A stretch of 64,000 nt of DNA. Source: an uncultured Methylophilaceae bacterium (lineage in GTDB: Bacteria; Pseudomonadota; Gammaproteobacteria; Burkholderiales; Methylophilaceae). The notes beneath the pieces were generated by a model. That model was not told the DNA's origin and did not search any database. It saw nothing but the letters and a program-made list of their open reading frames with translations. The DNA lies in assembly GCA_905182075.1 (NCBI GenBank), contig CAJIZS010000001.1, positions 496,001 to 560,000 on the forward strand. The letters run 5' to 3'. The number at the start of each line of letters is the position of its first letter. The stretch's first letter is position 1. A program made the position numbers and the translations under genes. Of this stretch, positions 2,295 to 55,416 are shown in pieces.

Positions 2295-2508
2295 ATCTGC
2301 TAACCTCGATCTTTCACCTCTCATTGGTGTACTTGCACCATTTATGCTTCCAGCCTTTAAAGTTCAATTATCAATTCTTTGTATATTAATTGTTTTAGCA
2401 TTAACTTGGAATATTCAAGGTGGTGAAATGGGCTATAACTCTTTTGGAAATATTCTTTTTTATGGCCTTGGAATGTATATATGGCTTATATCAAGTCAAA
2501 AGGGGTGA
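2295..2508 (+). pseudogene. Fragment of a branched-chain amino acid/urea ABC transporter permease (LivM-like)
   Basis: An open stretch with ATG at 2344 and stop at 2506-2508 encodes a hydrophobic run followed by WNIQGGEMGYNSFGNILFYG, which is the start of LivM/UrtC-type permeases (usual form WNxxGGQMGYNSxGNxFFFG). Only about 55-70 residues of a protein of some 300-400 residues are present, and no other part of the transporter is nearby. It directly follows the lplT start in divergent orientation and stops before an RluA-like fragment. It is either a gene remnant or, more likely given the rest of the window, a piece of another genome joined in during assembly. Confidence 0.6.
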
Positions 2509-2591
2509 CTCCTAGAGGCTTCTGGATATCGGGTCACGCCCAGTGAGGACTGACTCTTATTGTGCCTTTGCTGCTGTTCAACAGGTCACCA

Positions 2592-2694
2592 TCTATTTAT
2601 GTAGACAAAGATATTGTCGTGGTGGATAAACCCAGTGGCCTATTATCTGTCCCTGGTAAAAACCCACTCAATAAAGAAACTGTTGCTCTAGTCA
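2592..2694 (+). pseudogene. Fragment of an RluA-family pseudouridine synthase
   Basis: About 34 codons read IYVDKDIVVVDKPSGLLSVPG followed by a few more residues, the signature N-terminal segment of RluA-type rRNA/tRNA pseudouridine synthases (the conserved V-x-K-P-x-G-L-x-x-x-P-G block that precedes the catalytic HRLD motif). The catalytic domain is absent: after the codons for ETVAL the sequence turns into the antisense strand of a PhoH gene. Bases 2509-2591 hold nothing recognisable. Fragment and junction, not a functional gene. Confidence 0.6.
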
Positions 2695-6081: not shown

Positions 6082-6651
6082 TTAGATATGACCCTCAAAA
6101 GTGTCCATAGAGTCGCAAGGGGTATCAACCCCATAACTATTTCTGTATTGGACTATAAAGTCTACTATTGAAGGTATGTCATTTAAATCAAAGGATGGGA
6201 TTTTTACATCTAACAAAAGATCAGAAACGATAGCTATAATATGCGAATCTTTCTTATATAGAATTTCATTAGAAATTTCTTTTCTATGCACTTCAATCTT
6301 TGGGAAACTCATATTTTTTAATCCTTCGATTAAAATAATATCAGTATCAGAACTAATTTGAGTAATAGCTTGATCTATATTGAATTTATCTTTCGGACTT
6401 TCTGTAATAAGTGCAGATCGATGATTATTAAAAATTAAAGTTTGAGATGCCCCAGCTTCCCTAATACGAAAACTATCTTTCCCGGGAGTATCAATATCGA
6501 ACTTGTGATGAGCATGCTTTATTACGGAAACGATTAAACCTTTACTTATTAATTGAGGAATGAGCTTCTCAATTAAAGTGGTTTTTCCGCTTCCACTATT
6601 TGCAGCACAAATCCCTAATACGCAAGTAGATTTAATTATTTTCTTTTTCAA
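6082..6651 (-). CDS. mobB: Molybdopterin-guanine dinucleotide biosynthesis adaptor MobB
   Basis: GTP-binding partner of MobA that enhances bis-MGD formation. Intact at 189 residues. The P-loop AANSGSGKTTLIEKL lies at residues 16-30, followed by VIKHAHHKFDIDTPGKDSFR, the typical MobB switch segment with its His-rich patch, and IILIEGLKNMSFPKIEV near 105. It overlaps the end of mobA by 20 bp and is followed after 5 bp by moeA, so the group is probably one transcript. The GTP-binding residues are all present. Confidence 0.88.
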   Translation of the reverse strand: MKKKIIKSTCVLGICAANSGSGKTTLIEKLIPQLISKGLIVSVIKHAHHKFDIDTPGKDSFRIREAGASQTLIFNNHRSALITESPKDKFNIDQAITQISSDTDIILIEGLKNMSFPKIEVHRKEISNEILYKKDSHIIAIVSDLLLDVKIPSFDLNDIPSIVDFIVQYRNSYGVDTPCDSMDTFEGHI

Positions 6652-7153
6652 TTTTTGCTAACTCACTGAGGTTGTTAATATTTATGAAATCCTGACTACC
6701 TGAATTATATACTTTATAATTATTTTCTTTAATCCACAATTCCATTTTTCTCCCTCCTGCATTAATAAAATCTTCTATATTTCCCAAAAGAGAGCGATGA
6801 CACAGCATAAATACAGGCTCTAGATGATCATAAAGGCTAGGTAGTATTATAGTTGGACCCTCATCTTTAATACATAAGCTTAATCTTTTCACTAAGCTTA
6901 TGGGTAGGAACGGGCAGTCATTAGGGCAAAATTGCACCCAATTTTTTTTTGCCTGAAATAATCCTGCTTGAATTCCTGCAAGTGGTCCAATTTTATTTAA
7001 AATGCGGTCATGGAATTGAATATTTTTCGGAAATTGATTGATGGGCTGATTTGTATTAATTGAAATATGACAAACTTGCCCCTTCAACCGGTCATAAACA
7101 TGTTCAATTAAGTACTTACCATTTAGCTTGATAAGAGATTTATTGGTGCCCAT
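6632..7153 (-). CDS. mobA: Molybdenum cofactor guanylyltransferase MobA, N-terminus uncertain
   Basis: Transfers GMP from GTP to Mo-molybdopterin. Clear MobA features: RMGTNKSLIKLNGKYLIEHV, DRILNKIGPLAGIQAGL, FCPNDCPFLP and EPVFMLCHRSLL. The conserved nucleotide loop that should precede RMG (ILAGGxSxRMG) is not visible. Upstream DNA can be read, with one frame change in an A7 run near 7160, as VAIIT followed by KKRMG, lacking the double glycine. The true start therefore lies upstream of 7153, perhaps a TTG near 7190, and the loop is either mis-sequenced or degenerate. Orientation and overlap with mobB support the same operon. Confidence 0.8.
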   Translation of the reverse strand: MGTNKSLIKLNGKYLIEHVYDRLKGQVCHISINTNQPINQFPKNIQFHDRILNKIGPLAGIQAGLFQAKKNWVQFCPNDCPFLPISLVKRLSLCIKDEGPTIILPSLYDHLEPVFMLCHRSLLGNIEDFINAGGRKMELWIKENNYKVYNSGSQDFININNLSELAKIEKENN

Positions 7154-21380: not shown

Positions 21381-22315
21381 CAAATAATTCACATATACCT
21401 GTGTTACTAAAGGAAGCTATTGAGGGTTTGAATATTAAGCCAAATGGAGTTTATTTAGATTGCACGTACGGAAGAGGAGGGCACTCTCGTGAAATATTAA
21501 ATCTCCTCGGCCTAAAGGGGCGCTTAATTGCGATGGATAAGGATCTTGACGCAATAAAAGAAGCTAAAAAAATTAAAGATAAAAGGGATCTTAAAAACTT
21601 TATTCATTTACAGATATTGAACTCGTATTAGAAAAAAAAAAAATTAAACAACTGGATGGAATTTTAATGGATTTAGGAATCTCTTCACCACAGATTGATG
21701 AGCCAGAAAGAGGGTTTTCGATTCGTTTTGATGCCTTATTAGATATGAGGATGAATCAACAAGAATTACAGCGGCAGATATTGTAAATAATTATGAGCCA
21801 AAAGATTTGGTACGTGCAATTAAGTTACCTTTAGAGTAAATAATACATAAACAATAATTGTTAAAAATATTATTAAGCATAGAGAAGAGGTAGGACCCAT
21901 TTTAAGAACAATGGAGTTTGCAGAATTAGTTAGAGCCTCAATTCCAAAAAAAGAAATAGGCCCCAAGAACCCAGCAACAAAAACATTCCAGGCATTAAGA
22001 ATAATGGTTAACAGAGAAATTGATGAGGTTGAAGAAACATTACCATTAGCTTTTAAGCACCTGAAGCTTAATGGCAGACTTGTTGTTATTAGCTTTCATT
22101 CCCTTGAAGATAGAGCGGTAAAAAATTATGCAAAATTTAAACTTAAAACAGATATTGTTCCCAAATACATTCCAATAAAAGCTTCTGAAATAAAGGAGTC
22201 ACCATTAAAAATTATCGGAAAGCTTGTAATACCATCCAAGGGTGAGTCACAAAAAAATCCAAGATCAAGAAGTGCAAAATTAAGAATACTTGAAAAAGTT
22301 TTAGAGCTAGCATGA
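21377..22315 (+). CDS. rsmH: 16S rRNA (cytosine1402-N4)-methyltransferase RsmH
   Basis: SAM methyltransferase modifying the same 16S nucleotide as RsmI, whose gene lies 2 kb upstream. [27 protein letters not shown] (SAM motif), [16 protein letters not shown] with [19 protein letters not shown] and [13 protein letters not shown] are all typical. Three or more frame changes fall between 21600 and 21900, where the RIARAI region is scrambled. Repaired length about 312 residues. ATGA overlap with ftsL at 22312. Confidence 0.9.
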
Positions 22316-25742: not shown

Positions 25743-25928
<186 letters not shown>

Positions 25929-27044: not shown

Positions 27045-28134
27045 ATGTTATTTGAATTATTTAAATGGCTTTCAGTAGATTTTACTGCACTTAATGTTTT
27101 TAATTATTTGTCTTTGAGGGCGGTATTGGCAGTAATTACATCTTTATTAATTTCATTTACGTTTGGAAATTGGTATATCAAGAAGTTAGGGGAAAAAAGT
27201 TTTGGTCAATATGTTAGAAAAGATGGCCCCACCACTCATTTAAATAAGATGGGTACGCCTACAATGGGAGGTGGTTTGATATTAATTTCTATATTGGTTT
27301 CAACTTTACTTTGGGCGGACCTTACCAATGAATATATTTGGGTTCTGCTAGTAGTATCTGCTGGCTTTGGAGGCATAGGATAATTCTCATTGTAGACAGC
27401 AATGTAGTGAATGACGTCTTTGTCTTAAGAAGGAATATTTTAACTATTCTTTTTTTGCGCTCGCGGGTAGTTTAGGCTATTTATTTGTTTTTAAATTAGA
27501 TACTCTGATGATTCCTAATCTAATATCCTTTAAAGCAAATGGAGTCTATTTAGGTATTATTTACTTCCCGTTTGCAATGATCGTTATTGTAGGAGCAGCT
27601 AATGCTGTTAATTTAACTGATGGCTTAGATGGGCTGGCAATTGTTCCTGTAATGATTGCAGCTAGTTCTTTAGCTATTATTGCTTATTTAGCTGGTAATA
27701 TAAATTTTCTGCTTACTTAGGTATTCCTTATATAGTGGCGCAGGCGAGGTAACAATATTTTGTGCTGGGTTAATCGGAGCAGGTTTAGGGTTCTTATGGT
27801 TTAACGCTTATCCTGCTGAAGTATTTATGGGTGACCTGGGTCACTTTCAATAGGAGCAGCTATCGGGACCTTAGCGGTTATTGTTAGACAGGAGATTAGT
27901 TTTATTTATTATGGCAGGAATTTTTGTTGTTGAAGACAGTATCCGTTGTTTTACAGGTAGGTTATTTTAGATACACTAAGAACAGGTTTGGAAAGGCGAC
28001 GTATTTTTTTAATGGCTCCTCTTCATCATCATTACGAAAAAAAGGGTTGGAAGGAAACGCAAGTTGTTGTCAGATTTTGGATTATCACAATGATGCTTGT
28101 TCTTATTGGTCTTGCAAGCCTTAAAATTCGTTAA
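27045..28134 (+). CDS. mraY: Phospho-MurNAc-pentapeptide transferase MraY
   Basis: Ten-helix membrane enzyme transferring phospho-MurNAc-pentapeptide to undecaprenyl phosphate to make lipid [18 protein letters not shown] is the cytoplasmic loop signature; [14 protein letters not shown] carries catalytic aspartates; [13 protein letters not shown] with its histidine motif lies near the end. Frame changes near 27380, 27720, 27840, 27930 and 28010; the DDYLK segment near 27385-27430 is garbled. Repaired length about 362 residues, as in E. coli (360). The stop overlaps the murD start as TAATG. Confidence 0.92.
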
Positions 28135-35601: not shown

Positions 35602-35618
35602 ATAAAAATTTATGATTA

Positions 35619-36858
35619 GTGTATTCAGACCAAGGAGTAGTAGCCATTTTAGATGTTGGTACATCAAAAATAGTTTGTATGATTTTGCAGTTTGATCCAT
35701 CGGTACAGTAGAGATTGTATCTATGGGATCCTATCCTTCCAGCGGTTTAAAAAAAGGTGTGGTTGTAAATATTGATGCTACTACTGATGCTATTCAAAAA
35801 TCTATAGACCAAGCTCAAACTTCATTTGATGGAAAAATTAAAAATGTATTTGTAGGAATTGCTGGAAGTCATATTCGCAGTCTTAATTCTCATGGAATAG
35901 CGAAAAGTTAAAGATACTGAGGTATCCAGAATGAGATATTGATAGGGTTCTAGAAGCTGCTAGCGTGCAATTACCTCCCTCGGATCAGGAAGTGCTTCAT
36001 CTGTTATCGATCAGGAATATATGACTTGATGAACAACATGAAATTAAAGAGCCCTTAGGAATGAATGGGGTTCGACTTGAGGTAAAAGTCCATATAGTCA
36101 TCTAGGAGCTGTTGCAGCTGCATCGTAATATTGTTAAATGTGCATAAAGCGATGTGGTTTAGATGTTGTTCAAATAATATTGCAGACCAATTAGCGTCTG
36201 CCAAAGCTGTACTAACTGAAGATGAAGGGGAGTTAGGAGTATGTTTAGTTGATATTGGTGGCGGAACAACCGATATAGCTGTTATAAAAAACGGTTCAAT
36301 AAGGCATACTGCGGTTTTACCAATTGCAGGGGATCAGATTACAAATGATATTGCTGTTGCCTTTGGAACACCAATTCAGTCAGCAGAAGAAATAAAAAAA
36401 AACCATGGGATGGCAATCGCAAGTATGGCATCCATAAATGAGATGATTGAAATTCCTGTTGTTTCAGGAAGAGACCCAAAAAAAATTACGACCCAGGCCT
36501 TGGCTCAGGTTATAGAGCCGAGGATAACTGAACTCTTTGGACAGATTAAAGCGGAATTAGTTAGAAGTAAAGCTGCGAATGAAATATCATCGGGTATCGT
36601 AATTACAGGTGGCTCATCTCTTTTAGACGGACTAGATATAAGCTTGGAAAAGAAGTTTTCGATATGCCAGTTAGAACTGGTACACCAAGAGGAATTGACT
36701 GGGATACTTGAAGTTGTAGAAAACCAAGATATGCAACCGCTGTTGGTTTGTTAAAAATGGCAAAAGAAGATTTAAAAAATACAGACGGCGCATTTGATGG
36801 AAACTCAATAAGTAATATACTTAAAAGAATGAAGCATTGGTTTCAAGGAAACTTCTAA
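35619..36858 (+). CDS. ftsA: Cell division protein FtsA
   Basis: Actin-fold membrane tether for FtsZ. VVAILDVGTSKIVCMI is the phosphate-1 motif; MGSYPSSGLKKGVVVNID, FVGIAGSHIRSLNSHG, VCLVDIGGGTTDIAVIKNGS (phosphate 2) and GIVITGGSSLLDGL (adenosine motif) follow. The C-terminal membrane amphipathic helix is plausible in ILKRMKHWFQGNF. Four or more frame changes, near 35690, 35910, 36020-36160 and 36660. The start may be the GTG at 35619 or the ATG at 35612 with an indel; I prefer GTG because it is in frame. About 413 residues. Confidence 0.92.
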
Positions 36859-45751: not shown

Positions 45752-47715
45752 ATGGCAACAAGACAAGATTTAGCAAATGCAATCCGAGCACTATCAATGG
45801 ATGCAGTTCAAAAAGCAAAGTCAGGACATCCAGGCGCACCTATGGGCATGGCTGAGATTGGTGAGGTTCTTTGGAATAAATATTTAAACCATAATCCTAT
45901 TAACCCTGATTGGGCTAATCGTGACCGTTTTATTTTATCCAACGGACATGGCTCCATTTTATCATTTCACGTGCTTCAGAAACAAAATGTGTTAAGGGTT
46001 TTTGACAATATACTGGCTTATCCATTTTCATCGCCATCATTGAAACTGGAGCATGGGTATGGTCTGGTGTAGAAACTACTACAGCGTCTATATCTTCCTT
46101 CATCTCTGTTAAAAGAGTTCTATGCAATCAATTTAATCGCCGAGGCACATATTGTTGATCACCACACCTACACTTTTCTAGGTGACGGCTGTTTGATGGA
46201 AGGTGTTTCTCATGAGGCTTGTGCCTTAGCGGGAACTGTGGTCTATGGCAAGTTAATTGCTCTTTGGGATGATAATGGTATTTCTATTGATGGTGCATAT
46301 TGAGGGATGGTATACAGATGATACTGCCGACTCGCTTTGAGTCATATGGATGGCACGCTATTAGAGATGTGGATGGACATGATCCAGAAGCCATTGATAA
46401 GGCAATCCAAGAGGCAAAAAAAGTAACCGACAAACCAACGCTTATTTGTTGTAAAACAATTATTGGTAAAGGCTCACCAAATAAAGCCGGTACTCACGGC
46501 TGTCACGGTGCCGCTTTGGGTGATGATGAAGTTGCATTAGTCCGAAAAGAAATAGGTTGGGAACATGCCCCCTTTGTAATACCACAAGATGTGTACGATG
46601 GTTGGAATCAAAAAGATAAAGGCGATGCCCGTGAACAAGAATGGAACGCTAAGTTTGATGCCTATGCTAAAGAATTCCCAGAACTTGCTGCTGAATTTAA
46701 GAGAAGAATGAGTGGAGACCTTCCAGCTGATTGGAAGAAAATTTCTGAAAACCTTATTAATGATGCTAATACAAAGCAGAAAAAGTGGCAACTAGAAAAG
46801 CATCACAAAATGCATTACTGCTTTGTCAATGTTCTTCCTGAATTTGTTGGAGGCTCTGCTGACTTAACTGGATCAAATTTAACTAGTTGCCCAAGTTTGA
46901 GCATGTCGAGTGGAAAACCCTACGGGTAATTATATTTCTTATGGAGTTAGAGAGTTTGGTATGTCAGCAATTATGAATGGAATGGTTCTTCATGGCGGCA
47001 TTAAGCCCTATTGGAGGCTACCTTTCATATATTTACTGACTATATGCGTAATGGTATGAGAATGGGTGCGCTTATGAAGCAAAGAGTTATTTATGTTATA
47101 CCCATGATTCTATTGGTCAAGGTGAAGATGGGCCTACACATCAACCTATTGAAACAACTTCTAGCTTAAGATTTATTCCTAGAATGGAAGTGTGGAGACC
47201 TTGTGATACAACAGAAGTTACAACAGCTTGGGTTGCAGCAGTTGAAAATACAGAAAATCCTACAAGTTTAGTTTTAAGTCGACAGGGTACTGGATTTACA
47301 GAAAGGACTTCTACTCAAGTTAACAACATCCGCAAGGGTGGGTATGTTTTATCAGAAGCAGAAAATGAAAAGGTAGATGTAATATTAATTGCTACAGGCT
47401 CAGAGGTTGATTTGGCTATAAATTCAAAAGAAGCATTAGGGGAAATAGGAATTAATGCCCGAGTTGTTTCTATGCCTTGTACCCAAGCTTATGATCGTCA
47501 AGAAACTAAATATAAAGATAGTGTTCTTAACTCCAGGTATTAAAAGAGTTTCAATTGAAGCTGGCGTTACAGACTATTGGAAGAAATATGTTGGGCTCGA
47601 TGGCGCTTGTGTCGGTATTGATACTTATGGTGAATCAGCACCTGGCGGAGATTTATTTAAACATTTCGGTTTTACTGTTGAGAATGTAGTTTCCACTGTA
47701 AAATCAATTGTTTAG
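45752..47715 (+). CDS. tkt: Transketolase
   Basis: Thiamine diphosphate enzyme of the pentose phosphate and ribulose monophosphate cycles. A good RBS (GGGAGA) precedes [25 protein letters not shown] and [10 protein letters not shown] open the gene; the stretch that should follow is replaced by an antisense foreign fragment (45957-46118). TKT resumes at [25 protein letters not shown] (ThDP binding), [46 protein letters not shown] and [17 protein letters not shown]. Further frame changes occur near 46145, 46290, 46790, 46925, 47030 and 47530. About 654 residues; roughly 660 expected. Confidence 0.92.
45957..46118 (-). pseudogene. Antisense fragment of a Gfo/Idh/MocA oxidoreductase inside tkt
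   Basis: On the minus strand 54 codons read [40 protein letters not shown], an exact match to the NAD-binding domain of Gfo/Idh/MocA oxidoreductases, the variety with [25 protein letters not shown] common in Bacteroidetes and Planctomycetes. It replaces about 80 codons of transketolase between NGHGS and the [10 protein letters not shown] block. Neither end has start or stop signals of its own. Not a real gene at this place. Confidence 0.75.
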
Positions 47716-50979: not shown

Positions 50980-51641
50980 ATGATTTTAATTCTTGTTAAA
51001 GGTCTTTTTTCAAGGCTTAGCGGAGACAAAGCCTGATTTTAAAAAATATCTCTTATAAAGCTAATAGCCTTTTATCACTAAAAAAAGACTGTCAAGGTTA
51101 AAAGAGTAGAAGTTTTTTTATGCTTATCAAATAAAACGTATTAAAAAACACTTTAGTAGAAGAAAAGAAAAAATTATCTGAGTTAATTAACTTTATAATA
51201 GAGATTTATCAATTTGGCTATAGCAATTAAGAGCTGCAAGAAACGGTCAATAATTTTCCTGACAGTTTGATTTTAGCGCAAGCCAGTTTAGAGTCAGCTT
51301 GGGGGACATCAAGGTTTGCAGTTAAAGGAAATAATTTTTTTGGGCAACATTGTTTTTCAAAGGGTTGTGGAATTAGTGCCCGCGGAGATAAAAAAGTAGA
51401 GGTAGCTAAATTTGCTTCTGTGTTTAAAAGTATTCAATCCTATTACCGTAACTTAAATTCTGGTGAAGCATATAAGAAATTAAGAAAGCTTCGTTCTGAA
51501 GAATTGTCGAAGCTTAAGAAAATGGATTCCCTTAAATTAACTGAAGGTTTATCTGATTACTCCACACTGGGTAATGGAGATTACGCAAAAAGACTCAATC
51601 AAGTAATTACGTTTAATAAGCTTCAACAATATGATAATTAA
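50980..51641 (+). CDS. Bax-like glucosaminidase (peptidoglycan hydrolase), N-terminus damaged
   Basis: Glucosaminidase-domain protein of the Bax group. The intact C-terminal 124 residues read ILAQASLESAWGTSRFAVKGNNFFG, GCGISARGDKK, SVFKSIQSYYRNLNSGEAYKKLR and YSTLGNGDYAKRLNQVI; the Glu of LESAWG is the expected catalytic acid. Upstream, a hydrophobic start (MILILVKGL) and pieces such as ELINFI and FGYSN can be followed through about five frame changes. The start is approximate. Probably exported and acting on cell-wall glycan. Confidence 0.7.
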
Positions 51642-55017: not shown

Positions 55018-55416
55018 ACTCAGTTTTAAATAAATCTTTTGCAAGTCTTTGGATCACGCATACTGCATTTGGCCTTCCATTAGCAATATATTTACTTAGA
55101 CTGAGGCTGGAATTTTTAAAACAGCCTTCTTTCTTTGATGCTTTGGTATAGCAACTTTAACTTTTATTTTTTTTATTATATGGCTTTCATTAACTAATTG
55201 CTTTAATAGGTCAGCCTCATACATCTTAAGTACATGAGGGTAATTTGATAATTCACAAGGATAAATATTAGTATGAGTTTAAAAGATTTATTAACTATAA
55301 TTTTTTTACTTTCTATACTCAATCGATTGATATTACTTTATCAATGTAACTTTTGGATTCCTTTCATTAAGTTCAGAAAAAAAATACACTTTCAAGAACT
55401 TTTTTATGGGTTCCAT
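55013..55416 (-). CDS. DUF721/DciA-like protein
   Basis: Low-conservation gene in the position where Betaproteobacteria carry the DUF721 gene, next to the M23 peptidase and secA but on the opposite strand. MEPIKKFLKVYFFSELNE can be the N-terminal helix; CELSNYPHVLKMYEADLLKQL resembles the CxxxAWATxLRxxxPxLL block of the KH-like DUF721 domain, and VKVAIPKHQRKKAVLKIP the closing strand. Several frame changes. DciA proteins load the replicative helicase DnaB; that role is inferred only from family. Stop overlaps the exporter start. Confidence 0.5.

Follow-up and report, generated by a model that had tools for sequence, protein, structure and literature searches.

The transketolase gene (tkt) in the window, by which we mean the whole 64,000-nt stretch of DNA that was analyzed, is interrupted by a 159-bp antisense block of flavobacterial sequence that has replaced part of the gene. 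We consider it very probable that this block is an artifact of building a noisy genome sequence and not a real feature, with read misplacement in long-read correction, consensus or polishing as the most likely source. The locus is made up as follows.

Positions 45752 to 45961, plus strand: 5' part of transketolase (tkt), 79 to 88% identical in DNA to 11 of the 12 relatives in the genus and matching positions 2 to 73 of Pfam Transketolase_N.
Positions 45963 to 46121, minus strand: foreign patch, a Gfo/Idh/MocA glycoside 3-dehydrogenase-like fragment (94% DNA identity to L010; NF058561, E value of 2.8e-19; 0 of 20 genomes).
Positions 46126 to 47715, plus strand: remaining part of transketolase, with several frame breaks.

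Transketolase orthology ends at about 45961 and restarts between 46112 and 46151, according to the relative compared. Of the 12 genus relatives, 11 align with tkt to the left and right of the block but not within positions 45962 to 46111; the twelfth (G002, 60% completeness) gave no tkt match whatsoever. The displaced stretch measures about 190 bp, or 64 codons, and corresponds to about 1322 to 1514 of L004, in which transketolase is a single 662-codon ORF. This is fewer than the roughly 80 codons proposed in an initial annotation of this DNA. The tkt orthologue of G006 has the full set of its Pfam domains, and the flanks of the block are collinear with G006 across most of the window. Both borders of the patch are blurred by short shared letters (ATTTTA on the left and GTTCT..GC on the right); its ends are ambiguous, with outer limits of 45956 and 46130. 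When the transketolases of the relatives were aligned by tblastn, they were carried through the block in one frame, in which a stop ends at 46072. The patch interrupts the only canonical transketolase found in the genome, and the gene is further damaged by several frame breaks.

Pfam analysis of the minus-strand frame from 46127 to 45930 (65 aa) revealed a match to GFO_IDH_MocA (PF01408) with an E value of 1.1e-9 over profile positions 56 to 107 of 120. The patch also matched the NCBIfam family BT_2158_fam (NF058561, glycoside 3-dehydrogenase) over profile positions 86 to 142 of 487. Matches of this strength lie far outside chance expectation and agree with the initial annotation, in which a reversed piece of about 160 bp had been assigned to Gfo/Idh/MocA. 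A search of the species-genome collection with the patch confirmed 87 stretches as relatives, the best 80 of which were kept. Among these best 80 of 87, contigs L010 and L011, both from flavobacterial MAGs, ranked first. The best relatives in the same set are Flavobacteriaceae and other Bacteroidetes, and planctomycete loci reach 61% at most, so that of the "bacteroidetal or planctomycetal" affinity first suggested, the former stands and the latter does not. Protein identity was 95% to L010 (query residues 2 to 57, 56 residues) and 93% to L011, and DNA identity was 165/176 (94%) and 154/167 (92%), respectively, with both alignments starting from 45956. Targeted searches of the L010 and L011 genomes returned the same places again as the best matches. 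From the MAG titles, we take the source bacteria of both contigs to be marine.

The counterpart in L010 (Flavobacteria bacterium MS024-2A FRAM18_bin161) is a 446-codon Gfo/Idh/MocA glycoside 3-dehydrogenase-like ORF (NF058561), of which the patch represents only a small part of about 56 residues. Unlike that gene, the patch contains no start or stop codon, as had been noted before, and it lies antisense inside another gene. It belongs to the family by profile, but the complete N-terminal NAD-binding and C-terminal domains of a functional gene are missing. None of the 20 other genomes searched, comprising 12 from the genus and 8 from the order, contains the patch, and phage records contained no match. 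In a search of viral contigs for a viral carrier, six stretches fit the pattern and none was confirmed as a relative, which is in line with the earlier remark that the piece has no mobile-element border. Judged by its sequence affinities, the patch is of flavobacterial origin and foreign to the host, and the initial annotation had rightly placed it outside the betaproteobacteria. We considered a horizontally acquired gene or mobile element and rejected it on the size of the fragment (159 bp), its absence from the 20 relatives, and the lack of a phage match or a confirmed viral relative.

The condition of the window as a whole also was assessed. Alignment to the proteins of three relatives gave 51 frame switches over 49.0 kb for the first relative, 45 over 46.8 kb for the second and 51 over 49.5 kb for the third, whereas nine comparisons between relatives yielded 0 or 1 each in 34 to 75 kb; that is, about 1 frame break per kb in the window versus 0 to 0.01 between relatives. 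The genome comprises 1.107 Mb in two contigs, yet its completeness is 47%; that of the single-contig genus relatives (n = 4, 1.3 to 1.4 Mb) is 99%. Measured against G006 proteins, the window has three internal gaps that span 25 residues or more, a count that leaves out the tkt block (through which tblastn aligned) and the MnmA patch described below; G004, G001 and G008 had none each. Window and genome alike resemble a long-read assembly that received too little correction, and it is from this resemblance that we infer the platform. The initial annotation had hinted that the join needed read support, and the many frame breaks, together with other foreign patches in the window, bear this caution out. 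The candidates for such patches are the following.

Positions 25743 to 25925, plus strand: second foreign patch, a piece of MnmA covering the beginning of a Mur ligase gene (Pfam tRNA_Me_trans, E value of 1.8e-16).
Positions 2589 to 2699, listed on the plus strand and antisense to phoH: RluA-like pseudouridine synthase piece at the margin of the phoH segment that does not align (NCBIfam PRK10158, E value of 4.1e-6).
Positions 2326 to 2505, listed on the plus strand and antisense inside phoH: UrtC/LivM-like permease piece (urea or branched-chain amino acid ABC; NCBIfam UrtC, E value of 0.0029, and LivM, E value of 0.038).
Positions 35616 to 35708, plus strand: ftsA start (FtsA by Pfam), reading GVVAILDVGTSKIVCMILQFDPS and differing from the ftsA start of relatives.
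Positions 55020 to 55148, plus strand: intergenic piece between two collinear genes, with no Pfam or NCBIfam match.

The MnmA fragment lies where roughly the N-terminal 100 residues of the Mur ligase, presumably murF, would be encoded. In a DNA comparison covering the phyla of the flavobacterium and the host, it matched 32 of 296 genomes of the former (best, 82%; the L010 genome, G021, is not among the 32) and 2 of 298 other genomes of the latter (best, 70%). The host genome has its own mnmA elsewhere, with 26 of 52 residues identical to the patch. By these sequence matches, the MnmA fragment is a second strong foreign piece, far closer to the phylum of the flavobacterium than to that of the host.

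In phoH, PhoH residues 325 to 409 (about 85 residues; window positions 2387 to 2633) fail to align to relatives. The RluA-like piece had no Pfam match, and a similar typed piece gave a weak match to PseudoU_synth_2 (E value of 0.29); it is probably a further patch. The neighboring UrtC/LivM-like piece, whose sole Pfam match is unrelated (E value of 0.079), is a possible but weak candidate. The same applies to the ftsA start, which may resemble alphaproteobacterial FtsA and for which Pfam, NCBIfam and the structure library gave no match. The intergenic piece likewise is a possible, weak candidate. Of 298 other genomes from the phylum of the host, 26 have similar frames, the best match being 64% over 28 aa with a frame of 423 codons; the peptide of the piece is, by our reading, permease-like, and the structure library offered no support. 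A plasmid search with two candidate patches other than the tkt insert returned no match.

Further inspection of the tkt patch revealed a resemblance to the sequence that it displaced.

Positions 46066 to 46084, plus strand: candidate misplacement anchor inside the patch, resembling the displaced transketolase GVETTTG codons.

The antisense of the flavobacterial piece holds GGTGTAGAAACTACTACAG, which is near the transketolase GVETTTG codons (for example, GGTGTTGAAACAACAACTG in L004). Counted after the conserved NGHGS codons, the patch and the GVETTTG stretches are within 6 to 7 bp of register. Local alignment scores were compared with those of 792 control segments of 200 bp, taken from relatives on both strands; because the tkt regions are among these controls, the counts are biased upward. 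The score of the window insert was reached by 1 to 9 of the 792 controls for 7 of the 10 relative sequences (which count G006 twice, as L007 and L094) and by 131, 221 and 221 controls for the remaining 3. In the same test, 0 to 16 of the 792 controls reached the score of L010 and 1 to 153 reached that of L011. Because the insert resembles the displaced GVETTTG stretch near register, misplacement of a foreign read in correction or polishing is suggested. It is likely but unproven that chance similarity anchored a misplaced flavobacterial read; we grade it so because the similarity, which is uneven among relatives, was spotted after the fact.

We propose that the host tkt, as reconstructed, received a short stretch from a flavobacterium that presumably lived in the same sample. 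The sequence placed in reverse would have been a read from the flavobacterium or a contig path derived from such a read, at a step that may have been long-read correction, consensus or polishing, and the placement would have been guided by the chance resemblance of its antisense strand to the transketolase codons at the site. A patch of about short-read length, reversed by a corrector or polisher, would fit best, and it would be without any role in a cell. Both pervasive errors and further foreign pieces, at least one of them strong, occur in the same contig, as this account expects. Counted against it are that the patch falls about 30 bp short of the stretch displaced, that three of the additional patches are weak candidates, that the anchoring similarity is uneven and post hoc, and that a second Transketolase_N-like frame (see below) could ease the loss of tkt.

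Frameshifts, chimeric contigs, clipping events and uncovered regions are named as metagenome assembly errors in the nanoMDBG paper (PMC13087279). The frame breaks and foreign pieces of the window liken it to such error-rich or chimeric long-read contigs; however, the passages considered here deal with whole-contig contamination, clipping and uncovered regions, whereas the tkt patch is a replacement of less than 200 bp. Our literature search found no report of this exact pattern, a foreign replacement of less than 200 bp inside a gene.

A physical chimera, in which host DNA and a flavobacterial fragment became linked in one molecule at the library preparation or amplification stage and the joint then passed into a contig of thin coverage, is unlikely. 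The frame breaks do point to a weak consensus, and short letters are shared at both borders, but simple ligation adds or joins DNA, whereas here a similar length was displaced and the flanks are collinear. The window has one or more other patches, differing in sequence, which also argues against this explanation.

A real event in the cell, with short illegitimate recombination bringing flavobacterial DNA into tkt, is very improbable. Both borders do lie within one contig, and the ambiguous matches ATTTTA (left) and GTTCT..GC (right) resemble microhomology. Against this, the only canonical tkt found is broken, the patch is shared by none of the 20 relatives searched, and no viral relative was confirmed. 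Besides the tkt pieces, Transketolase_N matches were found at C1:821234-821872 (93 bits) and C1:816813-817118 (17.8 bits). The first sits in a 256-codon frame (L108, 1435 to 2205) outside the window, which we take to be perhaps a separate N-terminal transketolase subunit; the second is in a 298-codon frame, presumably a dehydrogenase E1 component by its reading. A second intact transketolase was sought, and neither frame is a full canonical one. The argument that tkt is indispensable is nonetheless weakened because the 256-codon frame is present, and the host might survive without tkt. The breakage throughout the window, with its frame breaks and other patches, is the stronger argument against a biological event.

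That this small-genome host truly took up short gene scraps from unrelated neighbors by similarity-guided replacement, so that alleles of transketolase, Mur ligase and phoH are broken in the sequenced population, is scarcely credible. Contamination at binning, with a flavobacterial contig binned with the host, would account for the foreign origin of the patch but is just as implausible and already contradicted, as a 159-bp piece flanked on both sides by sequence collinear with G006 is no separate contig.

With misplacement of a read as the preferred reading, the block is of low biological interest and is useful as a caution about this genome. This genome, and perhaps others built alike, has foreign patches of less than 200 bp inside housekeeping genes. 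As a consequence, completeness tools register lost genes, and homology searches could yield false transfers or false gene fusions.

Other irregularities were observed in the window. About 40 to 60 residues of a Glycos_transf_4 gene at 27380 to 27505, which we assume to be mraY, fail to align to relatives, and another gap relative to relatives lies at 21765 to 21857. In comparisons with the proteins from the fetched stretches of relatives, a MobB-like frame at 6085 to 6657 (minus strand) was largely unaligned, and a frame at 51231 to 51638 without alignment encodes a Glucosaminidase (Bax-like) product.
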